Below, one piece after another: positions 2,053 through 47,909 of a stretch of DNA of 64,000 bases. The notes beneath the pieces are model-generated. The model made no database searches and was not told the DNA's origin. It saw only the letters and a program-made list of their open reading frames with translations. Numbering within the stretch: the stretch's first letter is position 1; every line of letters starts with the position of its first letter. The stretch is from NCBI GenBank assembly GCA_963969495.1, contig OZ018321.1:127287437-127351436 (forward strand), written 5' to 3'. Origin of the DNA: Ceratothoa steindachneri (Eukaryota > Arthropoda > Malacostraca > Isopoda > Cymothoidae). The position numbers and the translations under genes were made by a program.

Positions 2053-4733
2053 TTAAATAATAGGGAGAAGGACGGCCTCCCCCAAGAAGTCAACAAGTCC
2101 ACAAGTCAATGTGCACGAATCTGTCCCGAGCACAAGGGACAGGCGGTAGCGACCCCGCCCATCCCGGTACTGGGACAGGTATCGTGCGCGAAGATCACCC
2201 AGACTGGGACATTCGACAAGAATGTGCCGAACAGTCTGGGGGACGACGCAGTCGTTGCAATAGGGCGCAGGCGAGCGCTCCATCAGATAGCGATGCGTCA
2301 CACGAGTGTGCCCGATTCGGAGACGACAGAAAGCAACCTGAAGCCGCCGCGGCATTGGGGGATAAGTCCATGGGAACAGTCGCGGCGCAATGGCACGCAA
2401 CTTTAAGTTCCCTTCGACCGTCTCCCATCTTCTTTGCCAAGCAGTCCGAAGAGCTGCCCGTATTCCTGCCATGTAGTCGATGTGAGGAAGAGCGAAACGC
2501 TGGTCCGGTCGCAGAGTCCTCGCGGACTCTTTGGCGCCCTCATCGGCGCGCTCATTCCCCGCAATTCCTACATGTCCAGGAACCCAACAGAAGATAATCT
2601 CGACATCTGCCCGGCTCGCCAAAACCGTGGCGTCACGGATATCGCGAACCAGGGGATGCGGATATTCCAATGCCCCGAGAGCACTCAGGGCGCTTTGTGA
2701 GTCGCTATAGATCACAATCCGGTCTCCGAACCGGGCACGTCGCGTAATCTCCCGTACCGAGTGGTGTAGTGCCACCAGCTCGGCCGTGAAGACAGACGCA
2801 GCGCCTGGTAGAGCCCCGCTGACTTCAAACAGAGGGGATACGGCGTGGAAGCCGACCCCCTCTTGGGACTTGGAGCCATCCGTATACACTGGCACGGTAC
2901 CAGCGTGACACGATGTGTGCTCCAAAAAGGTCGAACGCAATACTCCCGGCGCAGTACAAGCTTTGGGAGCAGAGGCGTGGCGACAAATAGCCAAATGTGG
3001 TACCCTCCAGGGTGGCGTCCTGGGCAGAACTAGGGGCGCCACCGGCCCGAGAGCTATATCCACCTCTCGAAGGAGTTTCCGGGCCCTAAACCCAAAGGGC
3101 TTAGGGTATGACTGGCGTCTCTCGGCGGCATAGGCACCATCGAGATCAGCTGCAGATGCAGTGAGAGCTGTTGGCGACTGAGGGAGGCGCCGGGCTCGCG
3201 CGTACAGGCGAGTGATGCACTGCACGCGGCGCAGAGCGAGTGGCATCTCCCCAGCATCGACCAACAGGCTCTCAATGGGGGAAGTGCGAAAGGCACTGGT
3301 CGCAAGGCGAAGGCCGGTGTGGTGGATCGAATCCACCTTCCGCAATAAACGCTCGGCTGCGGATGCATAAAACTCGCATCCGTAGTCGAGCTTCGAGCGA
3401 ACAAAGGATCGATAAAAGAGTAAGGCGGTAGCCCTATCAGCGCCCCAAGCGCTGAACATCACGGAACGGAGAATGTCCATTGCGCGGGTACAAGAGACCC
3501 TAAGGCTGCGAATATGAGCCTCCCAGGTAAGGCGTCGGTCGAATACAAGACCAAGGAAACAGTGCGACTCAACCACATTCAGGCGCACCCCATTAAGAAA
3601 CAAATCTGGGTCGGGGTGAAGCCGTGGATGGCGGCAGAAGTGCACCACCTTAGTCTTGGCCAAAGAAAACCGAAACCTGTGCGCTTCGGCATAGCGAGAG
3701 ACGCGGTTCAATGCCTGTTGGAGTCGACGTTCCAGAGTTGGCATCTGGGCCGCGCCAAAAGAGATCGAAAGGTCGTCCACGTAGAGCGTAGCGAGAACAT
3801 CTTCCGGCAGCACCGAGGTGATGCCATTGATGCTCAGGGCAAAGAGTGTGACACTGAGGACACTTCCCTGCGGGACACCCTCTTCCTGCTCCTTTGGGGC
3901 AGAGAGGGCTCCCCCCACCCGTACGCGGAATCGACGATCTCGCAAAAATTCAGATATAAACATTGGGAGGCGTCCCCTCACCCCCATCGTGTGGAGAGTC
4001 TCCATGATACCGTATCGCCATGCGGTATCATAGGCCTTCTCCAGATCAAAAAACACCGTGGCGTAGTGCTGTCTACGAAGGAAAGCCTCGCAGACGGCAT
4101 TTTCCAGTCGGAGCAGAGCATCCGACGTGGAGTGGAACTTACGGAAGCCGCACTGTGCAGAAGACAGATGGCCTCCGCTGTCCAGGAAATAGGCTAATCT
4201 AACATTTACCAATTTCTCCATCAACTTGCACACGCAAGAGGTTAGAGAGATTGGGCGGAAACCGGTAGGAGTAGAGTGATCTCTCCCCGGCTTGCGAAAG
4301 GCGAGCACAGTAGCGATTCGCCAGGAGTCTGGGAGAAGACCTTCCACCCAGATCCTGTTGAACAAATCTAACAGAAAAGCCATGCCTCGCTCACCCAGGT
4401 GTCGAAGCATGGCGTACGGGACATCGTCCGGACCATGGGCGGTGTCCGCGCACGAAGCGAGAGCGGAACGCAACTCACTCACAGTAAACTTGTCGTTGAA
4501 GGGTTCTCCGCCTCTGGAGGTAAAGTCCAGCCGGCGGCCTTCCACGACATCACGACGTGCATTGAATGCTGGCGGAGCAGCATCACGGCTAGAGAATGCG
4601 GAAAAAGCGGTCGCTAAGGATTTCGCCACGGACGCGGGGTCCGAGATTGCGATCCCATTCTCCTGGAGAACGGGAGGGGGGTCCTTCGAGAACTTGCCCC
4701 GAATCCTTTTGACTCGCTTCCACACCTCAGCTG
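2053..4733 (-). pseudogene. B1 ORF2: reverse transcriptase and RNase H
   Basis: One open frame, 2053-4881, gives 942 codons; the first ~50 are out of the element frame because of a 1-base insertion near 4731. Visible blocks: linker (AEVWKRVKRIRGKF, ~50-65); RT fingers with FRPISLTSCVCKLMEK (~208) and CGFRKFHSTSDALLRLE (~244); first RT aspartate in FFDLEKAYDTAW (~278); EEGVPQGSVLSV (~334); catalytic YVDD (~367); thumb with CFLGLVFDRRLTWEAH (~441). RNase H I follows with VPVYTDGSKSQ (~664), TAEL, IYSDSQSALSAL (~725) and GNERADEGAKE, so all four acidic positions are present. A terminal Cys/His motif (CNDC..H..C, ~876) matches I/R1-type elements. The polymerase and RNase H parts look functional, but the upstream stop and frameshift break the full protein. 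Confidence 0.9.
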
Positions 4734-16983: not shown

Positions 16984-17566
16984 TTTTTTTATTTTTTTTT
17001 TAAACGCGTTCAAGGCCATGCCCACAACTCAGCTTTCCCTTGAAATACCAGAGATAATTCCCAAGAACTGCTCAGTAGCGTTCCTGCTTCCGCGCGAATT
17101 TTTTTTTTAATAAAAGATATTTCATTTATCAAACTCTTTCCTTCCATTCATATGTTAGTTTCTGAAAGTATATAAACATACAATTAAATTTGAAATAATA
17201 TTTTTTTTAAATTGTGAAATGTAGAACCTGTGGTACATGTGGTATTTGAAAGGAATTCTGTCTGTACCACCGGTGGCGCATGTGGCCTTGAACGTGTTTA
17301 TTAAGAGCCTATCTGGCGACTACCCACTTGGGAACAAGTCACCGCACTCACAACAACCTAGCACTAGGCTACCTTAAAATATGAATGAAAAACAATAACA
17401 GCAATAATAAAAGAAAATCGTAACGAGGAAGCAAGCTCCTGCGTCGGGGAGGGGTGCCCCTGGCGCAGGAACGTGAGACCGACAAAGAAAACAACAAAAA
17501 AATAGCTAAATAAAAGGGAGAAGGCCGGCCTTCCCCCAAGTCCACCAGTCAATGTGCACGCACTCG
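16984..17566 (-). mobile_element. B2: short 5'-truncated family B copy
   Basis: It contains a T-run (16984-17001), a putative nested inverted-repeat element (17002-17300), then the family B 3' end: the CTATCTGGCGACTACCCACT block, the CCTAGCACTAGG hairpin (17357-17368), the GGAAGCAAGCTCC block, and GGAGAAGGCCGGCC up to TCAATGTGCACGCACTCG. Only the 3' UTR and the last ORF2 codons are kept. A 13-bp duplication flanks it on both sides. No other part of family B is present. Confidence 0.9.
17002..17300. mobile_element. Candidate MITE nested in the B2 tail
   Basis: The left end AACGCGTTCAAGGCCATG and the reverse complement of the right end AACACGTTCAAGGCCACATG form imperfect inverted repeats. Similarity extends inward: a TTGAAATACCA on the left matches TTCAAATACCA on the opposite strand of the right part. 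The block lies between the B2 T-run and the conserved family B 3' end, where no other copy has extra sequence. No transposase and no certain TSD were seen, so the superfamily is unknown. Confidence 0.55.
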
Positions 17567-20174: not shown

Positions 20175-20187
20175 TCTTTTTCTTCGA
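20175..20187. repeat. Target-site duplication, left copy (B3 into C1)
   Basis: TCTTTTTCTTCGA, 12 of 13 identical to TCTATTTCTTCGA at 23847-23859. Confidence 0.8.
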
Positions 20188-20399
20188 TTTTTTTTTTTTA
20201 GGAGCCCATCTGGCGACTGTCCACTTGGGCATAAGTTGCCGGAATCACGACAGCCTAGCACTAGGCTACTTTAAAATAAAAATAACAATGATAAAAATGG
20301 GAAAAACGTAATAATTAGGAAGCAATCTCCGGCATCGAGGGAGGTCCCCCTCACCCCGGCGCAGGAGCGTGAAACCTACAAAGAATACAATGAAAAAAT

Positions 20400-22566
20400 A
20401 AAAAAAATAAAACCTACTTAAACAAAGTGGAGAAAACCGGCCTCCCCCAAAAGTCAACAAGTTCAAAAGTCAATGTGCACAGACTCGTCCCGAGTACAAG
20501 GGACAGGCGGTAGCGACCCCGCCCATCCCGGTACCGGGACAGGTATCGTGCGCGAAGATCACCCAGACTGGGACATGCGAGAAGAATGTGCCGAACAATA
20601 TGGGGGACGACGCAGTCGTCACAATAGGGCGCTGGCGAGCGCTCCATCAGATAGCGATGCGTCACACGAGTGTGCCCGATTCGGAGACGACAGAAAGCGA
20701 TCTGAAGCCGTCGCGGCATAGGACCATGTGAACAGTCGCGGCGCTATGGCACGCAACTAAGTTCCCTTCGACCGTCTCCCATCTTCTTTGCCAAGCAGTC
20801 CAAAGAGCTGCCCGTATTCCTGCCATGTAGTCGGTGTGAGGAAGAGCGAAAAGCTGCTCCGGTCGCAGAGTCCTCGAGGACTCTTCGGCGCACTCATTCC
20901 GCGCAATTGCTACATGTCCAGGAACCCTTCAGAAGATAATCACGACATCCGCCCGGCTTGCCAAAACCGTGGCATCACGGATATCGCGAAACAGGGGATG
21001 CGGAGATTCCAATGCACTCAGGGCGCTCTGTGAGTCACTATAGATCACAATCCGGTCTCGGAGCCGGGCACGTCGCGTAATCTCCCATAACGAGTGGTGT
21101 ATTGCCACCAGTACGGCCGTGAAGACAGACGCAGCGACTGGCAGAGCCCCACTGACTTCAAACAGAGGTGAAACGGCGTGGAAATCAACCCCCTCTTGGG
21201 ACTTGGAGCCATCCCTATACACTGGCACGGTTCCAGCGTGATACGGTGTGTGCTCCAAAAAGGTCGAACGCAATACTCCCGGCACCGTATAAGCTTTGGG
21301 AGAAGAGGCGTGGCGACAAATAGCCAAATGTGGTACCTTCCAGGGTAGCGTCCTTGGCAGAACCAGGGGTACCACCGGCCCGAGAGCTATACCTAGCTCT
21401 CGAAGGAGTTTCCTGGCCCTAAACCCAAAGGGCTTAGGGTATGACTAGCGTCTCTCGGGGGCATAGGCAACGTCGAGATCAGCTGCGGATGCAGTGAGAG
21501 CTGTTGGCGACTGAGAGAGGAGCCGGGCTTGCGCGTACAGGCGAGTGATGCACTGCACGCGGCGTAGAGCGAGTGGCTTCTCCCCACCATCGACCAACAG
21601 GCTCTCAATGGGGGAAGTGCGGAAGGCACCGGTCGCAAGGCGAAGGCCGGTGGGGTGGATCGAGTCCACCTTCCGCAATAAACGCTCGGCTGAGTATGCA
21701 TAAAACTCGCATCCGTAGTCGAGCTTCGAACGAACAAAGGATCGATAAAAAAGAAGGGCAGTAGCCCTATCAGTGCCCCAAGCGCTGAACGTCACGGAAC
21801 GGAGAATATCCATGGCGCAGGTACAAGAAACCCTAAGGTTGCGAATATGAGCCTCCCAGGTGAGGCGTAGGTCCAATACAAGACTAAGGAAACGGTGCGA
21901 CTCAACTACATCCAGACAATTTCCAGGCGTACCCCATTAACAAACAAATCTGGGTCGGGGTGGAGCCGTGGATGGCGGCAGAAGTGCACCACCTTAGACT
22001 TAGCCAAGGAAAACCGAAACCTGTGCGCTTCGGCATAGCGAGAGACGCGGTTCAATGCCTGTTGGAGTCGACGCTCCAGAGTTGGAATCTGGGCCGCGCC
22101 AAAAGAGATCGAAAGGTCGTCCACGTAGAGCGTAGCGAGAACATCTTCCGGCAGCAGCGAGGTGATGCCGTTGATGCTTAGGGCAAAGAGTGTGACACTG
22201 AGGACATTTCCCTGCCGGACACCCTCTTCCTGCTCCTTTGGGGCGGAGAGGGCTCCCTCCACCCGTACGCGGAATCGACGATCTCGCAAAAATTCAGATA
22301 TAAACATTGGGAGGCATCCCCTCGCCCCCATCGTGTGGAGAGTCTCCATAAAACCGTTTCGCCATGCGGTATCATAGGCCTTCTCCAGATCGAAAAACAC
22401 CGTGGCGTAGTGCTGTCTACGAAGGAAGGCCTCGCAGACGGCATTTTCCAGTCGGAGCAGAGCATCCGACGTGAAGTGGAACTTACGGAAGCCGCACTGT
22501 GCAGAAGACAGATGGCCTCCACTGTCCTGGAAAAAGGCTAATCTAACGTTTCCCAATTTCTCCATC
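20400..22566 (-). pseudogene. B3 ORF2: RT palm to RNase H
   Basis: It keeps VRLAFFQDSGGHLSSAQCGF, FFDLEKAYDTAWRNGF, EEGVRQGNVLSVTLFAL (P to R change in the usual GVPQGS), catalytic YVDD, and thumb KLDYGCEFYAYSAERLL. RNase H has VPVYRDGSKSQ, where the first catalytic aspartate remains but the preceding Thr is changed; then TAVL instead of TAEL, losing the catalytic glutamate, and YSDSQSALSALES. A Cys/His tail (CDDCVVPHIVRHILLACP) is present. Frame breaks occur near 21440 and 21910. It is not functional. Confidence 0.85.
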
Positions 22567-22845
22567 ATTTTTTTATTTTATTTAAGGGGCTATCTGGCAA
22601 CTGCCGACTTAGGCATAAGTCGCCGTAAACAAACACCTAGTTCTAGACTACTTTAAAAAATTGAACAGGAAACAACAATAAAAATAAATAACAATAACAA
22701 AGCAATAGCAAAAACAATAACAAAAACAACAACAACAATTAAACCTGGTTAAATGAAAGGAAGAAGGCAAAAATATGGAACACTTCACGATTTTGCGTGT
22801 CATCCTTGCGCAGGGGTCATGCTAATCTTCTCTGTATCGTTCCAA
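22567..22845 (-). mobile_element. U6 snRNA / family B chimeric retroinsertion inside B3
   Basis: On the minus strand, a 5'-truncated U6 snRNA (22845-22769) is joined to a 5'-truncated family B 3' end (22768-22584: AAACCTGGTTAAATG, CACCTAGTTCTAGAC, CTGGCAACTGCCGACTTAGG) that ends in an interrupted A tail (22583-22567). Both parts have the same orientation, and the U6 3' oligo-U lies at the join. Compared with B1, about 169 bp of RT sequence (B1 4224-4392) are missing at the insertion point. I see no TSD, so a target deletion accompanied the event. Confidence 0.85.
22769..22845 (-). ncRNA. U6 snRNA fragment (nucleotides ~31 to the 3' end), retropseudogene
   Basis: The minus strand reads TTGGAACGATACAGAGAAG, then ATTAGCATGACCCCTGCGCA, AGGATGACACGCAAAATCG and TGAAGTGTTCCATATTTTT. 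This is U6 from about nucleotide 31 to its terminal U run. It has the catalytic ACAGAG box and the AGC element. Differences from the usual sequence are few (GACCCC for GGCCCC; GTGTTCC for GCGTTCC). The 5' hairpin needed for a real U6 is absent and no snRNA promoter can be expected, so it is a dead retrocopy. Confidence 0.92.
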
Positions 22846-23232
22846 GGTGACCCAGGTCTCGAAGCATGGCGTATGGGACATCGTCCGGACTATGGGCGGT
22901 GTCCACGCACGAAGCAAGAGCGGAGCGCAATTCGCTCACAGCAAACCTGTCGTTGAAGGGTTCTCCGCCTCTGGAGGTAAAGTCCAGCAAGAGGCCGTCC
23001 GCGACATCACGACGTGCATTGAATGCTGGCGGAGCAGCATCCCTGCTAGAGAATGCGTTAAAAGCTGTCGCGAAGGATTCCGCCACGGACGCGGGATCAG
23101 AGATTGCGGTCCCATTCTCCAGGAGAACGGGAGGGGGGTCCTGCGAGAACTTGCCCCCAATCCTTTTGACTCGCTTCCACACCTCTGCTAAAGGGGTCTT
23201 CCCGTTAGGTGAAGACACGTATGCCCGCCAAG
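22846..23232 (-). pseudogene. B3 ORF2: linker/RT N-terminal part beyond the nested insertion
   Basis: The frame reads SSPNGKTPLAEVWKRVKRIG, then GKFSQDPPPVLLENGTAIS, AFSSRDAAPPAFNARRDV, FTSRGGEPFNDRFAVSEL and SPDDVPYAMLRDLG, and stops at the U6 join. It matches B1 and B4. At 23232 homology switches to the family 5' region with about 2 bp shared at the junction. Confidence 0.82.
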
Positions 23233-23846
23233 AGCTGCCCGAGGGCGGCTCCGTTGATGTGCAAGGGGAATTGGGGAGAGATTTGTTTTTTTGTTTTTTT
23301 AATTTTCATACATGGGCATGGTGACCCTCTTTGTTCTACGGGAAGCAATAGTCCATCACCTCTCGCAGTTGCCCTCATTGCAAGAGGTGCTTATAGGCCT
23401 GGCAGAGCCAGGTGCCACCATTCAGGACCACCCCTCCCGCCTGGTGGCCTGGCAGTACATCGGCATGGTGGCTCCACCTTAGACGCGGCGTAAAAACATA
23501 GATTGTGAAGAGGAAAGGAAAAGGGATTCGGGGAAGATATGGGTGGGGATGAAGCAGGTTGTTAAAAACCAACCACCCCAGACCGGAGCTCAGGGGTTAG
23601 GGAACATTGTCCCCTCCCCCCTCAGCCAAAACCGGGACGGTTGGCTGAGAAGAAGGTCAGCATCTACCCTGTGAAATTAAAGGCTCACCTGAGAAAGTTG
23701 TGGGAGAGGTTGTATGAAAAGCGACGAAGTAGGGGATAATACAGGCTATCTGAAGGAAGGAAGAGAGGCTAAGCTGGGGCCGGACGGAGCGCTGAGTCCC
23801 GTCAGCACGGTGGCCAGGATGGCAAATCGCCGCGCCCCTTACGGAG
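23233..23846 (-). other. B3 5' region (ORF1 start and 5' UTR of family B)
   Basis: It is collinear with 50170-50757 of B4. It includes the ORF1 start region and a GC-rich leader with self-complementary blocks (CCTGGCAGAGCCAGG at 23398-23412). It ends at CGCCCCTTACGG, the inferred 5' terminus of the family, beside the TSD. Confidence 0.75.
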
Positions 23847-23859
23847 TCTATTTCTTCGA
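23847..23859. repeat. Target-site duplication, right copy (B3 into C1)
   Basis: TCTATTTCTTCGA, matching 20175-20187 at 12 of 13 positions. Confidence 0.8.
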
Positions 23860-29890: not shown

Positions 29891-32660
29891 TCAATTGTTT
29901 TGCGTCCCTAAACGGCCACTTTTCAAGACTTTGTCTAGTCTTGACTTGAACTGGTCAACAGATTCACTGTTGACAACTTCCACTGGAAGTGCGTTCCACT
30001 TACCGCAGATACTGTAGGTGAAAAAGTTTCCACACAGATTGCGGTTGTAACGCTTCAGTTCAAGTTTGAAGCCGTGATTGCGCGTTCTGTTCTCACTCAG
30101 TGTGAAAATATCCCGGTAGTCAACATTGTCGAACCCTCGAAGTATTTTGAAGACTTCGATGAGCTGACCACGCAGTCTACGGGTTTCCAGCGAGAACATA
30201 TCTAACTCCCTTAGTCTATCCTCATAACTTTTATGTCGGATAGAGGGAATCAGCTTGGTTGCCCTGGCTTGTACGCGTTCCAATCTCGCGATGTCCTTTC
30301 GCAATGAAGGACTCCAAAATTGTACGGCATACTCCAGGTGCGGTCGGACAAGTGAGTTGTACAGGCACAGTACAATCTCCTGGTTCCGATAACCAAACTG
30401 GCGCTTAATATAGCCTAGCATCCTTTGGGCCTTTTTCTCCGCCTCAATGCACTGTTTCGAGAACTTGAGGTCACTAGTGATTGTTACACCCAAGTCCTTC
30501 TCAGTGTCACTCGATTCAAGAGCAGTGCCCTTAAGGATATACTGAGATTGGGGGTTTCTGTGGCCGATATGCATCACTTTGCATTTGCCCACGTTAAAAG
30601 GCATTTGCCACGTGTCCGACCACTCCCCAATCTTCCCAAGATCTTCCTGCAGGCGGGCAGTATTTCCATCCTTTGCAACGTTCATACCAAGCTTGGTATC
30701 GTCGGCAAATTTGGAAATCTTCGCAACCATGTCACCGTCCATGTCGTTGACGTAGATGATGAATAGTAGTGGTCCCAGGACAGAACCTTGAGGCACCCCG
30801 CTAGTAACGGGCACCCAATCAGAAGACTGTCCATTCACCACCACCCGTTGCCGTCTGCCACTTAGCCAGTTCTCGATCCAGCCGGCTACCTTTCCGTCTA
30901 TGCCAAGCGCTCGCACTTTCCGGAGAAGGCGGCGGTGTGGTACCTTATCAAAGGCTTTCTGAAAGTCTAGGTAGACCACATCCACAGCCTTGTCCCGATC
31001 GTGCTCGCTGAAAACGAAGTGGAAGAATTCTACAAGGTTCGTCAGGCATGACCGTTGCCTTCGGAAGCCGTGCTGGGAACTCCTCAGTAGCACGTTTGAC
31101 TCTAAATACGACGTCACTTTGTCCACCATGATGCTTTCCATGAGTTTACCGACTATCGAAGTCAGACTGATAGGTCGGTAGTTCGACGGTTGGTTACGGT
31201 CTCCTTTCTTGAAGATCGGAGTCACCTCCGCCTCACGCCAGTCTCTAGGAACGCATCCGGTCCGGATTGACATGTTAAAGATAGCGCACAGATGTCGTGA
31301 TACTTCATCGCACACTTCCTTCAACACCTTGGGTAGAAACCCGTCCGGTCCAGGGGACTTATTCGTCTTTAGGTCAGCGATCTTTTTCTTTATTTCTCCT
31401 TCAGTGAAGTCAATTGCCTCCAGCTTTTCCCCCGAGTAGGAATCCGTCGGCTGGGGAATGGGACCACACTCTTCAGTAAACACCGAAGAGAAGTAGTCGT
31501 TGAGGAGGTTAGCATTTTCTGCATCTGAATGCTTTAATGTCCCCTCCTCATTCCTCAAAGGGCCAATCGTTCGACGGATTGGTTTACGGCTGTTCACATA
31601 TCCAAAAAACTCCTTGGGATTCTCTTTACAAAGTCTCGCCACTCGGAGTTCCTCAGACCGCTTAGCCGCCCTTATGCTGGACTTCACTCTCCTGGCTAGC
31701 CTCCGGTATTCGTCAAAGTCACCCGAGATCTTCGATTGCCGGTACACATTTCTCTTCTCCCTAAGCAGTTGGCCGATTTCTCGATTAAACCACTTTGGTT
31801 GAACAGACGACCGACGGGGGCATTTCAGAGGGATGAAACGCGATTGAAGACTCATGAATGTGGTTTTGAAACTGTTCCAAGAGTCTTCAACAGCCTCGCA
31901 CTCTTCTAGCCTCGCGTCAGTCAGTTCCGCGCGTAGACCTGCAAAGTCTGCTCTTCTCAAATCCAGTTTCCTTGATTTACTAGTTGCAGACTCTGCCTTG
32001 GGGACTTTGACTACGAATCTAATTAGTCGGTGGTCACTGCCACCGAGCTCTTCGCCAACAGAGAGGTCCTCAACGATGTCATCCTCAGAGGTGAAAACCA
32101 AGTCGAGGATATTGTCTCCTCTCGTTGGCTCTCTCACCCATTGAGTGAGGAACTCGTTGTTCGTGAACTCCAGGAGTGGTGCGTTCTCGCCACAGGGTTC
32201 TCTGGTTTCCCAGTCAACTTGTGTGTTGAAATCACCCATGACGATACACACTCTGTCTTCGACAAGTTCTCCTAGTAGCTGGTACAGATCTCTGTCCTTT
32301 TCAACGAGTTGGGCAGGAGGTCTATAAAGCACCAGGGTCCTGTATTTGGCAGCACCTATCTCTAGGTCAACACCTAGTAGTTCATGGTCGGATACGATGT
32401 TGCAATCCGTCGAGTTGAGAGTATCCTTGACATACAACATCACACCGCCACCCTCTCTGTCTGGCCTATCTTTCTGGAAGAGCTGGTAACCGGGAATCGT
32501 GAATTCGCCTTCAAAATCTCGGCTTGAGGTTTTAATCCACGTCTCCGTTATGGCCACCATCTCAGGTTCCTCTGTTGCTACGAGGCCACGGAGCTCAAGA
32601 AACTTATTCCTGATTGACCTCGCGTTGAACAGAAGAACTTTTAGGGAGTCCCCCAGTGTA
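29891..32660 (-). CDS. C4 ORF2: endonuclease and reverse transcriptase
   Basis: The frame is open for at least 889 codons from the Met at 32560. In-frame coding continues upstream (VLLFNARSIRNKFLELRGL), so the true start lies near or above 32640. Endonuclease: N in LFNARS, E in ITETWIK, IVMGDFNTQVDWE, LDLVFTSEDDIV, GGSDHRLIRF. Linker: QPKWFNREIGQLLREKRNVY. RT: SPGPDGFLPKVLKEV, SNYRPISLTSIVGKLMES, HGFRRQRSCLTNLVEFF, VYLDFQKAFDKVPHRRLL (first Asp), SGVPQGSVLGPLLFIIYVND, SKFADDTKLG (catalytic FADD). C terminus: VVNSESVDQFKSRLDKVL. There is no RNase H, as usual for CR1/L2. It nicks DNA and primes reverse transcription of its own RNA. It is a retroelement gene, not a host gene. Confidence 0.93.
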
Positions 32661-32667
32661 GGACTCC

Positions 32668-33800
32668 CTACGCTCTTCCGTTTCCCGGCTTCTTTTGTGT
32701 GGTAGTACCCCTCTTTGCCACATCTAAGAACGTCGTTCCAGGAGTGACACGGGCATACTCTCTTATGTCCGCCTTCACTCTGGGTCGGACGCTCCTCTGC
32801 GTCCGCTCTACGACATCCTGGATTAGGTTACAGAGTACAGCCTTTCCCTTGAATGAAAGGTGCACTCCGTCCCTTTGGTAAAGGTCGTTTCGACCGTAAA
32901 AGGTGCGGTAAGGGTCCAGAAAGAAGACCCCTTCCGCCGTACAGAGGTCGGACAGGCGCTGGTTCAGGGTCACGTTCCTAGAGTGAGCTGTCCGGCTAGG
33001 ACCTCTTCTTGGGAGCATCCCTACAACGACCCGTTTGCGAGTTCTCAATCCACAGTCGTCCACGGCTCCCATGACCGTGTTGAGAATTTTCTCGCTGGGG
33101 CCTACTTTGCCTCCTCGGAGGTAGAGGTCATTCCCACTCACCATCAGGGCAACGACTGAATTCTCGGAGATCTGAGATTTCTCAGCCTCTACCCTGATGT
33201 GGTGGTTTCCCCGTCCTGGCTGGCAGCATACCTCCACACTAGTGCGAAGGCGGGCCGCTAGCAGGGGCCGCAAACCTTGTGCTTGGGAATCGCCCACAAG
33301 GGTAACCCTCGGACATTTCCGTGCAGCAGAGGTTTGATGCTTTCCTTGCGGAAGCGAACTCTCGGTTCCCGCTTTCTTCTCCATCTTATTTTTCTTCTTC
33401 TTTTTCTTATTCATCTTTTCCGCGCTATCTTCCTTTGTTTTTATCTTTTCTTCCTCTGCTTCAACTTTCTCTTTTTCAGCTTCTACTTTATCTTCTGTTT
33501 CAACTTTCTCTTCTTCCTGTTTCTTTCGCTTCCTTTTCTTTTTCTTTGGGGGTTTATCCGTAGCATGCGGACCTAGCTCTGGGGGTAGTACTGCAGAAGC
33601 AGTGTTTGGTACAGGGCTTGCCGTTAGCTCTGCTATTCTCACCTCTAGCATGCGAATCAGTCCGGCGTGTTCTAATTCGAGTCTGCTTATTTTCTCCTCC
33701 AACTTCCTGGATCTTTCCTCGGAAACCCTGCACGTTTCCTTTAGCTCCTTGATTTGGCCGTTTAAAATACAGTCGGTGCAGGAACTGGCCGGGTGGCATT
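32668..33800 (-). CDS. C4 ORF1: zinc-finger, coiled-coil and esterase-like protein (5' end in gap)
   Basis: The frame is open from the gap edge to the stop at 32668. It begins with CHPASSCTDCILNG, the end of a Cys/His finger (PHD-like, inferred), followed by a coiled coil (IKELKETCRVSEERSRKLEE). Next is a long Lys/Glu stretch (~50-110 of the visible part), then an SGNH/GDSL-type domain: VTLVGDSQAQGLRPLLAA (Ser nucleophile), LMVSGNDLYLRGGKVGP, KRVVVGMLPRRGPSRTAH and YQRDGVHLSFKGKAVLCNL (Asp-His). PHD and esterase domains in CR1-type ORF1 are established knowledge. Its substrate is unknown. The true start is in the N run. Confidence 0.88.
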
Positions 33801-38589: not shown

Positions 38590-40080
38590 TTCCATAGCGC
38601 TATCTAGCGAATGCCTACAAGGGTATAAATCGCCGTACAAGCCAAATACTAGGCTAAATTAATATAAAAATAAGTAAATAACCCCCCCCCCCCTCCAAAA
38701 CAAAAAAAACGTATGCAACAAAACCAAAAGACAAAAAAAAACAAAGCAAAATGAAGAAGGAAGCACGCTCCGGCGTAGGGGGAAGGGAGTAAAATAAAAT
38801 AGGAGACCGGCCTCTTCCAAAGATCAAGAGTGTCTATGTACAAGAACTCGTCCCGATTACAAGGAAAGCGGTAGCGACTCCGAGGTAACATTCAACAAAA
38901 ATGTAGGGGGCAACGCAGTCGTCGCAATAAGGTTCCGACGAGCGCTCCATCAAACGGCGGTGCGTCGCTCGAGAGTGCCCAATTCGAAGGACCAAAAGAA
39001 ACCATAAGCCATCGCAGAACTGGGGGGATATGTCCATAGGAACAGTCGCGGCGCAATGACAGGCAACTTTAAGTTCCCCTCGGCCGTCTCCCATCTTCTT
39101 CGCCAGGCAGCCGGAAGCGATGGCATGACTCCTGCCATGAAATCAGCGTGAGAAAGAGCGAGACACAGGTTTGGTCGCCCCAATCCTCGCAAACTCTTTG
39201 GCACCCTCATTCCCTACAATTTCCACATGTCCAGGAGCCCAGGAGAAGGTTATCTCGCCATCCATCTGATTGGCAGCAACCGTGGCGTTACGGACCGTAC
39301 ACTACGCTTATCTTCCAAACCGAGAGGTGTATTGTCATCAGCTCTGCCGTCAAGACAGACGCAGCGCCTGGTAGAGCCTCGCTTACTTCAAGTAGAAGGG
39401 ATACGACATGGAAGCCGACTCCCTCCTGGGATTTGGAGCCATCCCTATACACTGGCACGGATCCAGCGTGACAAGAAGTGAGCTACAAAAAGTTAGAACG
39501 CAATGTGGTCTGATATATACACCGAGCTCTCGCAGAAGTTGCCTATCCTTCAACCCTAAGGGATAGGGCATGACTGGCATATAGGCACCATCGAGAATGG
39601 CCGCGGATGCAGCGAGAGCAGTTTGCAACTAGGGGAGGGGTGGGGTCCGTGCGCATAATGCACTTAGTGAGTCACACTTCTCTAGCTTCAACAAGTAGGC
39701 TCTCAAAAGGGGAACGTGAGGAAGGCACCGGTCGCCAAACGGAGACCGGTGTGGTGGATCGAGTCCACCTTCTGCAATACATGATCGACTGCGGATGCGT
39801 AAAACTCTTATCCGTAGTCAAGCTTCTAAAGAAAAAAGGATGAGTAAAAGAGTTAGGTTATAGACATATCAGCCCCTTAAGTGCTGAAAGTCACTGAACG
39901 AAATGCCCATGGCAGGAGTACAAGAGACCCAAAGACTGCGGATATGAACTTCCCAGGTGAGAGGCGTCGGTCCCAGACAAGACTAAGAAAAGATTGAGAA
40001 TCTACAACTTCAAGGCGAACTCCACCAATTAGGAAGAGGTCCGGATTGGTGTGGAGCCGTGGATAGCGGCTCTTCATTCG
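38590..40080 (-). mobile_element. B5: old, degenerate family B-related copy, 5'-truncated
   Basis: The 3' end carries a weakened hairpin block (CTATCTAGCGAATGCCTACA, 38600-38620) and ATACTAGGCTAAATTAA. RNase H and RT-thumb remnants follow on the minus strand: HADFMAGVMPSLPAAWRRRW, RIGHSRATHRRLMERSSEPY, CDDCVAPYI, VDSQSFLSLVWDRRLSPGKF. Indels occur every few hundred bases. The 5' break at ~40080 lies in the RT. No TSD was found, and it is much older than B1 and B4. Confidence 0.82.
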
Positions 40081-41045: not shown

Positions 41046-41820
41046 GGCTAAAAGGAGGGAGGACGGGTGCATGGAGAAAAAGAGGGAGGGAAGTGAATGG
41101 CGAAAGGGGGGAGGGCGAGTGCATGGAGAAAGGGGGAGGGCGAGTGCATGGAGAAAGGGGGAGGGCGAGTGCATGGAGAAAGGGGGAGGGCGAGTGAATG
41201 GAGAAAGGGGGGAGGGCGAGTGCATGGAGAAAGGGGGAGGGCGAGTGCATGGAGAAAGGGGGAGGGCGAGTGCATGGAGAAAGGGGGAGGGCGAGTGCAT
41301 GGAAAAAGGGGGAGGGCGAGTGCATGGAGAAAGGGGGAGGGCGAGTGCATGGAGAAAGGGGGAGGGCGAGTGCATGGAGAAAGGGGGAGGGCGAGTGCAT
41401 GGAGAAAGGGGGAGTGCGAGTGAATGGCGAAAGGGGGGAGGGCTAGTGCATGGAGAAAGGGGGAGGGCGAGTGCATGGAGAAAGGAGGAGGGCGAGTGCA
41501 TGGAGAAAGGGGGAGGGCGAGTGCATGGAGAAAGGGGGAGGGCGAGTGCATGGAGAAAGGGGGAGGGCTAGTGCATGGAGAAAGGGGGAGGGCTAGTGCA
41601 AGGAGAAAAGGGAAAGGGTGAGTACAAAGAGAGAAGGGAGAAGGGTGAAAGCAAGGATAAAATGGGGCGAAGGGCAAGTGGATGGAGAAAAGGGGAAGGG
41701 CGATTACATGAGAAAAGGGTGAAGGGCGAGTGCATGGCAAAAATGGAGAAGGGCGAGTGCATGGAGAAGAGTGGAGAAGGGCGAGTGCATGGAGAAGAGG
41801 GGCGAAGGGCGAGTGCATTT
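41046..41820. repeat. 25-bp minisatellite, G-rich
   Basis: Tandem unit AGGGCGAGTGCATGGAGAAAGGGGG (shown here in full only as a 25-bp consensus description: AGGGCGAGTGCATG then GAGAAAGGGGG). It is nearly perfect at 41100-41600 (about 20 units) and degenerates toward both ends (variants GTGAATGG, AAAAGGGTGAAGG). Because 25 is not a multiple of 3 and the unit lacks stops, several frames stay open on both strands (up to 256 codons). Confidence 0.96.
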
Positions 41821-44149: not shown

Positions 44150-46691
44150 TAAATAATAGGGAGAAGGCCGGCCTCCTCCCAAAAGTCAACAAGTCCACCA
44201 GTCAATGTACACGAACTTCCCGAGTACAAGGGACAGGCGGTAACGACCCCACCCATCCCGGTACCGGGGCAGGTAACGTGCGCGAAGATCACCCAGACTG
44301 GAACATTCGCGAGCGCTCCATCCAAAAGCGATGCGTCACACGAGTGTGTCCGATTCGGAGACGACAGAAAGCGACCTGAGGCCGTCGCGGCATTGAGGCA
44401 TAGGTCCATGGGAACAGTCGCGGCGCAATGACACGCAACTTTAAGTTCCCTTCGACCGTCTCCCATCTTCTTTGCCAAGTAGTCCGAAGAGCTGCCCGTA
44501 TTCCTGCCATGTAGTCGGTGTGAGGAAGAGCGAAACGCTGGTCCAGCCGCAGAATCCTAGCGGACTCTTTGGCGCCCTCATTCCCCGCAATTCCTACATG
44601 TCCAGGAACCCAGCAGAAGATAATCTCGAGATCTGCCCGGCTCGCCAAAACCGTGGCGTCACGGATATCGCGAACCAGGGGATGCGGAGATTCCAATGCC
44701 TCGAGAGCACTCAGGGCGCTTTGTGAGTCGCTATAGATCACAATCCGGTCTCCGAACCGGGCACGTCGCGTAATCTCCCGTACCGAGTGGTGTATTGCCA
44801 CCAGCTCGGCCGTGAAGACAGATGCAGCGCCTGGTAGAGCCCCGCTGACTTCAAACAGAGGGGATACGGCGTGGAAGCCGACCCCCTCTTGGGACTTGGA
44901 GCCATCCGTATACACTGGCACGGTACCAGCGTGACACGATGTGTGCTCCAAAAAGGTCGAACGCAATACTCCAGGCGCAGTACAAGCTTTGGGAGCAGAG
45001 GCGTGGCGACAAATAGCCAAATGTGGTACCCTCCAGGGTGGCGTCCTGGGCAGAACCAGGGGCACCACCGGCCCGAGAGCTATATCTACCTCTCGAAGGA
45101 GTTTCCTGGCCCTAAACCCAAAAGGCTTACGGTATGACTGGCGTCTCTCGGCGGCATAGGTACCATCGAGATCAGCTGCGGATGCAGTGAGAGCTGTTGG
45201 CGACTGAGGGAGGCGCCGGGCTCGCGCGTACAGACGAGTGATGCACTGCACGCGGCGCAGAGCGAGTGGCATCTCCCCAGCATCGACCAACAGGCTCTCA
45301 ATGGGGGAAGTGCGGAAGGCACCGGTCGCAAGGCGAAGGCCGGTGTGGTGGATCGAATCCACCTTCCGCAATAAACGCTCGGCTGCGGATGCATAAAACT
45401 CGCATCCGTAGTCGAGCTTCGAGCGAACAAAGGATCGATAAAAAAGTAAGGCGGTAGCCCTATGAGCGCCCCAAGCGCTGAACGTCACGGAACGGAGAAT
45501 GTCCATGGCGCGGGTACAAGAGACCCTAAGGCTGCGAATATGAGCCTCCCAGGTGAGGCGTCGGTCGAATACAAGACCAAGCAAACGGTGCGACTCAACC
45601 ACATCCAGGCGCACCCCATTAAGAAACAAATCTGGGTCAGGGTGAAGCCGTGGATGGCGGCAGAAGTGCACCACCTTAGTCTTGGCCAAAGAAAACCGAA
45701 ACCTGTGCGCTTCGACATAGCGAGAGACGCGGTTCAATGCCTGATGGAGTCGACGCTCCAGAGTTGGCATCTGGGCCGCGCCAAAAGAGATCGAAAGGTC
45801 GTCCACGTAGAGCGTAGCGAGAACATCTTCTGGCAGCACCGAGGTGATGCCGTTGATGCTCAGGGCAAAGAGTGTGACACTGAGGACACTTCCCTGCGGG
45901 ACACCCTCTTCCTGCTCCTTTGGGGCAGAGAGGGCTCCCCCCACCCGTACGCGGAATCGACGATCTCGCAAAAATTCAGATATAAACATTGGGAGGCGTC
46001 CCCTCGCCCCCATCGTGTGGAGAGTCTCCATGATACCGTATCGCCATGCGGTATCATAGGCCTTCTCCAGATCAAAAAACACCGTGGCGTAGTGCTGTCT
46101 ACGAAGGAAAGCCTCGCAGACGGCATTTTCCAGTCGGAGCAGAGCATCCGACGTGGAGTGAAACTTACGGAAGCCGCACTGTGCAGAAGACAGATGGCCT
46201 CCGCTGTCCAGGAAATAGGCTAATCTAACATTTACCAATTTCTCCATCAACTTGCACACGCAAGAGGTTAGAGAGATTGGGCGGAAACCGGTCGGAGTAG
46301 AGTGATCTCTCCCTGGCTTGCGAAAGGCGAGCACAGTAGCAATTCGCCAGGAGTCTGGGAGAAGACCTTCCACCCAGATCCTGTTGAACAGATCTAACAG
46401 AAAGGCCATGCCTCGCTCACCCATGTGTCGAAGCATGGCGTACGGGACATCGTCCGGACCATGGGCGGAGTCCGCGCACGAAGCGAGAGCGGAACGCAAC
46501 TCACTCACAGTAAACTTGTCGTTGAAGGGTTCTCCGCCTCTGGAGGTAAAGTCCAGCCGGCGGCCTTCCGCGACATCACGACGTGCATTGAATGCTGGTG
46601 GAGCAGCATCACGGCTAGAGAATGCGGAGAAAGCGGTCGCTAAGGATTCCGCCACGGACGCGGGGTCCGAGATTGCGGTCCCATTCTCCTA
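44150..46691 (-). pseudogene. B4 ORF2: RT and RNase H
   Basis: An open frame of 788 codons (44289-46655) carries the same blocks as B1: YVDD, VPVYTDGSKSQEG, TAELVAIH, YSDSQSALSALEA and GHVGIAGNEGAKES. The last lacks the ERAD residues found in B1, so the final RNase H aspartate is missing. A TAG at 46689-46691 replaces a Gln codon just upstream. Near 44309 a deletion removes the Cys/His tail up to RARYL, and the terminal codons (GLVDFWEEAGLLPII) continue in another frame. Confidence 0.88.
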
Positions 46692-47909
46692 GAGAACGGG
46701 AGGGGGGTCCTGCGAGAACTTGCCCCGAATCCTTTTGACTCGCTTCCACACCTCAGCTAAAGGGGTCTTCTCGTTAAGTGAAGACACGTATGCCCGCCAA
46801 GAAGAGCGGCGGGCGTGCTTCGAAATATACCGGAACCTAGCCCTAGCCCGACGAAATTCAGCGACAGTGAAATCGTTCGGGCGGCGCTTATAGCGCATGT
46901 AGGCATAACGCTTCTGTTTGAGGGCCGTCTCACACTCGGCCGACCACCGTGGGAGTGGTCGGCGTGCAAAACAGCCAGACGTCCTAGGAATAGTAGTCAG
47001 GCCCACAGCGATAAGGTTGCCGGAGAAGAACTCAACGGCCTCATCTACCGACCTAAACTCCTCGACTGAGATAGAGAATTCAGTCATTTCCTGAAATGCA
47101 GGCCACCGCGCCCGCGCCAAGCACCACCGAGGTGGTCTCTCAGGCGGCAGTTGCCCTGAAAATGATATTTGAATGGGAAAGTGATCACTACCATGGAGTC
47201 ATTGACCACCCCCCAATCAAAATCAAGCTGTGCATCCGAAGAGCACAAGGATAGGTCAAGGCAAGAAAATGAAGCGGTTCTCGGACAGTGATGCGTAAAC
47301 TCATCCACGTTTGGGACACCCATCTCAAGCTCTTCGATCAGATCGGCAAGGACTTGTCCCCTGGGATTTATGGTGTAATCTCCCCAGAGAGGATGCCTGC
47401 CGTTCAGATCTCCAAGCAAGAGATAGGGCCTCGGCAACTGTGCCACGACGCGGGGGAAGTCCCCCGCGTCGAACTCAGCTGACGGTGGAATGTACGCAGA
47501 AATGATAGTATACCTCCTATCCAGGTGCAGCTGCACAGCCACTGCCTGAAAGGAGGTATCTAAAGAGAAAGGAAGAACGGAGACATCATGCCGGGTGTAA
47601 ACCGCGCATCCCCCAGCCCGGCCGTCCCGCGGTGGTGGGGTCGCAAGACCCTTATACCCCGGGAGGGCAGGCAGTGGGCACGCGCCTAGCATGGTCTCCT
47701 GCAAAAAAACAAGCTAACGGGAAACGGGACGAGGCGAGCCTCCGCAGCTCCTCCCAGTTGGCCCGGAGGCCACGGCAATTCCATTGAAGGAATATGCCCT
47801 CCAGGCCTAGCTCGGAGGAGACGCGGGGGCCCTCCTCGAATTGAAGACCCTCACGGGAATGGCCGTACGCTTCCCGGGGGCAGAACCCCGGGCGCTGTTG
47901 GCCGGACAA
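46692..47909 (-). pseudogene. B4 ORF2: endonuclease and linker
   Basis: The start region FLQWNCRGLRANWEELRRL lies near 47795-47740. A frameshift follows in the T-run at 47704-47710, after which QETMLGACPLPALPGYKG, YTIISAYIPPSAEFDAGD, YLLLGDLNGRHPLWGDYT and SCLDLSLCSSDAQ follow. A 1-base deletion near 47200 disrupts the block before SDHFP. The linker (ARARWPAFQEMTEFSISVEE) is open to 46692. It overlaps the end of ORF1 by about 100 bp in another frame. Confidence 0.85.

Follow-up and report, generated by a model that had tools for sequence, protein, structure and literature searches.

Organization of the U6-LINE chimera

The stretch of DNA analysed here, 64 kb in length and referred to below as the window, contains a chimera of U6 snRNA and the 3' end of a LINE, nested inside another copy of the LINE family that we designate family B. 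The chimera is real and well preserved, which confirms the observation made in a preliminary description of the locus. It spans window positions 22568-22849 on the minus strand and consists of 4 nt of filler, 77 nt of U6 and 201 nt of LINE 3' end (Table 1). The span previously assigned to it was 22567..22845; the insert itself is as described, but it starts at 22849 when the filler CACC is counted, and base 22567 belongs to the target.

Table 1. Features of the chimera, its host copy and related family-B copies in the window
Feature	Position	Strand	Basis
Filler, CACC in the minus strand, 4 nt, between target and U6	22846..22849	-	neither U6 nor the empty-site sequence at this place
U6 snRNA, nt 31 to terminal U-run, 77 nt	22769..22845	-	cmscan E 8.9e-22; 74/77 identical to Rfam consensus
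Family-B LINE 3' end, 201 nt: final ORF2 codons, stop codon, 3' UTR, A tail	22568..22768	-	blastn against six other 3' ends and alignment
Stop codon, position common to ORF2 of copy c1	22749..22751	-	3'-end alignment and ORF list, read from the sequence
Conserved 3'-terminal hairpin, GGCGACU...AGUYGCC	22596..22624	-	consensus fold of 6 copies
Host LINE copy c2 (family B) with internal rearrangement and the chimera nested inside	20188..23846	-	88-92% identity to c1 and c3 on either side of the insert
5' target duplication of host c2	23847..23859	-	12/13 identical to the 3' one
3' target duplication of host c2	20175..20187	-	12/13 identical to the 5' one
c1 counterpart of the lost 169-bp target	4224..4392	-	alignment to c2
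c3 counterpart of the lost 169-bp target	46250..46418	-	alignment to c2
Six matching family-B 3' ends	c1 to 1768; c2 20188; c3 43940; c4 62678; c5 17297; decayed one 62306

Our cmscan analysis places the Rfam U6 match at 22869-22769 on the minus strand (90.1 bits, E 8.9e-22). The match stops with the U-run and is the only one in the 64-kb window that reaches the gathering level. A permissive scan (to E 1) yields 11 matches; the 10 besides U6 score under gathering, and nine of them are microRNA models in a simple repeat at 34.2-34.6 kb. The leading 24 bases of the U6 match, which cover approximately the first 28 model positions, are host LINE and filler, where the alignment is poor and contains chance short matches such as UUCG. 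True U6 identity begins at TTGGAACG, at window position 22845, corresponding to Rfam model position 29 (counted on the cmscan alignment) and to what we take to be U6 nt 31 in human numbering. From this point 74 of the 77 nt are identical to the Rfam consensus, in agreement with the earlier statement that the minus strand carries U6 from about nt 31 to its terminal U-run.

Read along the minus strand, the insert passes from CACC to U6, which extends from TTGGAACG to the terminal T-run, and then to GCCTTCTTCC and onward to an A-rich tail. The natural 3' end of U6 and the LINE abut directly in the same orientation, with 0 bases between them and no A tail at the junction. The last U6 base is insert base 81, and three of the four LINE matches beside the junction (E 1.9e-7 to 0.014) start at base 82, the fourth at base 83. 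The same-orientation fusion of U6 to a family-B 3' UTR with an A tail is thereby upheld by both blastn and alignment, and microhomology to the U-run at the presumed switch point is absent in copies c1-c5. Two independent insertions that came to abut, one a retrocopy of U6 and the other a piece of LINE, would also yield a U6 and LINE pair with no target duplication enclosing both; such a coincidence, however, would have to bring together, with no intervening base, a LINE fragment and a U6 that has no tail and ends at its natural 3' terminus, and we regard it as very unlikely.

The bases CACC recur in homologue c1 on the upstream side of the join, at a distance of 9 to 6 bases (a match of 4-5 bases). 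A templated origin of the filler was considered and found unconvincing, because the nearby match is confined to c1, the c2 flank reading GACC and that of c3 CACA.

The inserted LINE 3' end and its family

By blastn, the inserted LINE end is similar to six further 3' ends in the window (E 2.6e-18 to 2.3e-6); the two best matches cover 120 bp with 76.7% identity and 122 bp with 76.2% (E 2.6e-18). A weak seventh match at 38599-38637 (E 0.014) may represent an eighth family-B 3' end in the window. The ORF2 stop codon is shared in the alignment, so the presumed switch point, as read from the sequence, lies 17 nt before the stop. A C/G-rich block of approximately 45-50 nt, present in all six other 3' ends (c1-c5 aligned, the sixth read directly), is missing from the inserted end, which therefore comes from a related, divergent subfamily. 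The insert had been called a copy of the same family as its host; this holds in so far as it carries a related family-B 3' end, but the term is loose for a divergent subfamily whose best-piece identity is 76-80% to c1-c5 and 73% to the decayed end.

SINEs typically consist of a small-RNA head and a LINE tail, and this general likeness, together with the distinct 3' UTR subfamily lacking the C/G-rich block, would suit membership in a multi-copy SINE family headed by U6 and ending in the LINE 3' end. Against such an origin, U6 stands on one of the seven family-B 3' ends in the window (the inserted one and six others), and the U6 piece is without its first 30 nt, so truncated a U6 being expected to have no promoter of its own. 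The related possibility, raised in the preliminary description, that the U6 piece forms part of the family consensus fares worse than the chimera: Rfam U6 is found nowhere else in the window and is therefore absent from the six other family 3' ends. On the evidence of the 64-kb window, a SINE copy is in our judgment highly improbable.

Pfam analysis of six proteins (two without a match) shows that c1 and c3 both encode reverse transcriptase and RNase H and that c3 also encodes an exo_endo_phos-type endonuclease, and family B therefore falls in the RNase H-bearing group. In two protein searches (the best 120 of 2050 matches and the best 120 of 296), the minority of listed matches with an organism name come from the sea slug Plakobranchus, the limpet Patella, the spider Trichonephila (two), the sea spider Nymphon and Seison, along with a Bacteroidota bin; the host is likely an invertebrate. 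The 201-nt fragment encodes no such domain itself; by its 3'-end homology it probably derives from an RNase H-bearing APE-type LINE of the I-like group. The earlier naming of an RNase H-type element as its source is accurate for the relatives c1 and c3, but not for anything encoded in the fragment.

The inserted LINE 3' end is complete, including both a conserved hairpin and the A tail. In the consensus of six copies, with the decayed end left out, two hairpins together fold at -17.4 kcal/mol, and pairing over the two holds in 95.6% of 90 cells, as compared with 18-52% in slid versions. None of the 15 pairs is altered on both sides, as a compensatory change would require, and hairpin pairing shows no excess over column shuffles; the argument for the hairpin is therefore one of conservation only. 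The family-B hairpin pattern, with at most 3 mismatches allowed, gives 6 matches in the window versus 0 expected, and 0 matches in viral_contigs, a collection that may omit records near the window's genome. The 3'-terminal hairpin is possibly a recognition element for the reverse transcriptase.

Host copy, empty site and target duplications

The host copy c2 is collinear with its homologues c1 and c3, and it is bordered by TCGAAGAAATAGA and TCGAAGAAAAAGA, which agree at 12 of 13 positions. As c2 has this duplication of its own, the two flanks of the chimera belong to one element rather than to two juxtaposed pieces. An assembly join of unrelated sequences could be suspected in a region this rich in repeats, and the window does include 200 N, elsewhere; across 21800-23700, however, there are 0 N, and the host halves are collinear within one copy with a matching duplication. 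The same observation tells against a junction made by assembly of two separate insertions, which the preliminary description had named as a refuting finding, and we consider an assembly join next to impossible.

Comparison of c2 with c1 and c3, in which the breaks fall at 4223|4393 and 46249|46419, respectively, reconstructs the empty site from these two copies and reveals that the target absent at the insertion amounts to exactly 169 bp, the approximate figure first reported. Apart from this, c2 is without approximately 3.4 kb internally at 23233, where sequence matching ORF2 ends at 46802 and the next base already belongs to the c3 match from 50168 (5' region); c2 may have arisen by internal deletion or by a template switch. 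Because c2 is rearranged elsewhere in this manner, the 169-bp loss is not certainly datable to the insertion, and it is tied to the insertion because it is located exactly at the insertion point.

Target duplications of 13 bp flank all three resolved copies (c1, c2 and c5) among the six other copies, being identical at 13/13 positions in c1 and c5 and at 12/13 in c2. The survey covered c1, c2, c3 and c5, as c4 continues past the edge of the window; the longest word shared by the ends of c3 is 8, which was not placed as a duplication. The 3' flank of the chimera after the A tail begins with T, as it does in c1, c2 and c5. No target duplication is seen around the chimera: no 13-mer of the 71-nt 5' flank matches at more than 6/13 positions, a value that 1858 of 2000 shuffled flanks reach, and the case for a single event therefore depends on the junction together with the empty site.

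Elsewhere in the window, at 16984-17566, a 5'-truncated family-B copy lies within a CR1-like element, is flanked by a 13-bp target duplication (TCGCACAACCTGA) and holds an inverted-end element of approximately 300 bp in its A tail. This arrangement, a family-B end and approximately 300 other bases inside one 13-bp duplication, was considered as a second chimera and rejected, since the extra stretch has inverted ends (17/18 bases) and therefore looks like a small DNA transposon, a later insertion into the A tail.

Proposed mechanism of formation

We propose that the chimera arose in a single retro-insertion event, in which the reverse transcriptase switched from LINE to U6 RNA during target-primed reverse transcription and end joining with loss of target followed; we consider this account probable, and the evidence for it is a single example within the 64-kb window. 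The tail and the cut site suggest that a family-B RNase H-type LINE would have nicked an older family-B copy and primed reverse transcription at its own A tail. After approximately 200 nt, 17 nt ahead of the ORF2 stop codon, the reverse transcriptase would have left the LINE RNA at the point where the junction is now found, and it would have resumed at the extreme 3' end of U6 RNA, copying 77 nt before a halt at U6 nt 31 that would account for the observed truncation. The 5' end would then have been joined to the target 169 bp from the nick, presumably by end-joining repair that added the 4-nt filler, and joining 169 bp off would have produced the deletion seen here in place of the family's usual 13-bp duplication. 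A template switch to the 3' end of U6, as already put forward in the preliminary description, is supported by the orientation of the parts, their abutment at the U-run, the 5' truncation of both, the A tail and the nesting in a host with its own duplication. The missing target duplication is a real weakness of the template-switch reading, and the lack of U-run microhomology in c1-c5 and of covariation in the hairpin likewise weighs against it.

The locus is a probable member of the U6-LINE template-switch chimeras, within group IV of PMC4476161. It has the natural U6 end in a U-run, the direct same-orientation join to a 5'-truncated LINE 3' end and the A tail, but not the enclosing target duplication that is usual, not universal, in this class. 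We file it as probable because PMC4476161 draws no conclusion on two opossum cases that have no obvious target duplication, and the same caution applies here.

Ligation of U6 RNA to a broken LINE RNA prior to insertion, with the fused RNA then copied through, has been named as the alternative to template switching for mammalian U6/L1 chimeras (PMC13174262). It predicts an identical, precise junction at the U6 U-run and the same DNA as switching would give, but it requires the LINE RNA to have broken just ahead of the ORF2 stop, and we think it unlikely as the origin of this insert.

Comparison with known chimeras

Two of the LINEs compared here deserve a word on their classification: L1 is not known to have an RNase H domain, and MGL belongs to the Tad1 clade. 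The vertebrate U6 chimeras in print involve L1, L2 and RTE (PMC4476161), and the earlier remark that such chimeras are known for mammalian L1 is in line with both PMC4476161 and PMC13174262. The mammalian U6/L1 chimeras resemble the present one in that sense U6 lies on the 5' side of the LINE 3' end and is fused to it through its own 3' end, and in being ascribed to template switching (PMC4476161, PMC13174262). They differ in that their U6 is consistently full-length and duplications are frequent (PMC13174262), whereas the present U6 starts only at nt 31 and part of the target has been lost. Duplications are also reported in 19 of 21 repeat-associated U6/U6atac copies (PMC4476161).

The closest architecture is that of the platypus U6/L2 chimeras, in almost all of which U6 is 5'-truncated, as here, and precedes a short stretch of L2 (PMC4476161); L2 is said in the same source to recognise a 3' RNA structure. 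Chimeras of U6 with L2 and with RTE are described from Anolis as well (PMC4476161). The platypus and Anolis cases involve other LINE clades and vertebrate hosts, and duplications of 1-9 bp accompany 72.5% of 40 platypus U6/L2 chimeras (PMC4476161), in contrast to the present chimera, around which none is found. Outside vertebrates, the WEIRD/MGL sequences of Magnaporthe are likewise template-switch chimeras made by a non-vertebrate LINE, with their parts in the same orientation; their 5' partner, however, is in most cases WEIRD RNA, reported to share no homology with U6, and direct repeats flank them (PMC2104539).

The preliminary description had treated a U6 chimera made by an RNase H-type element in a probable invertebrate as undescribed. 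As a claim of novelty this is too strong with respect to the mechanism, which is known and published for L2 and RTE besides L1 (PMC4476161); what is possibly new is the RNase H-bearing LINE as the maker, and the probably non-vertebrate host. Among the papers listed by our literature search, which covered titles and abstract openings and in which subscription journals mostly fell outside coverage, none concerns a U6-LINE chimera from an invertebrate or one made by an RNase H-type LINE; as evidence of absence this is weak. The words "invertebrate" and "insect" are absent from the main text of PMC4476161, as are "Tad" and "RNase H" from that of PMC2104539.

It is quite possible, if somewhat short of probable, that RNase H-type LINEs in this probably non-vertebrate genome make a recurrent habit of capturing U6 at the terminal U-run. 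If it is recurrent, U6 capture would be common to all target-primed LINEs rather than a quirk of vertebrate L1, L2 and RTE. Recurrence would also extend U6 template switching to another LINE group and probably to another animal group, and it would back the proposal in PMC4476161 that SINEs arise in part through template switching at LINE 3' ends; for either of these a single copy is insufficient.

Other features of the window and U6-like sequences elsewhere

A long open CR1-like frame of 978 aa occupies 29891-32827, and among the protein matches listed it has a relative with 90% identity across 90% of the 501 residues used as query; this CR1-like element has perhaps been active recently. At 41051-41818 a 25-bp unit is repeated in tandem approximately 30 times, and both strands carry long open frames. 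The U6 core pattern has 0 matches in viral_contigs and 1 match in genome_contigs, both collections that may omit records near the window's genome. That one match is a U6-like sequence with an apparent 5' stem at L001:2250-2360, in a contig of a pond Verrucomicrobiaceae bin, and this contig is likely a eukaryote contig misbinned with a bacterium.
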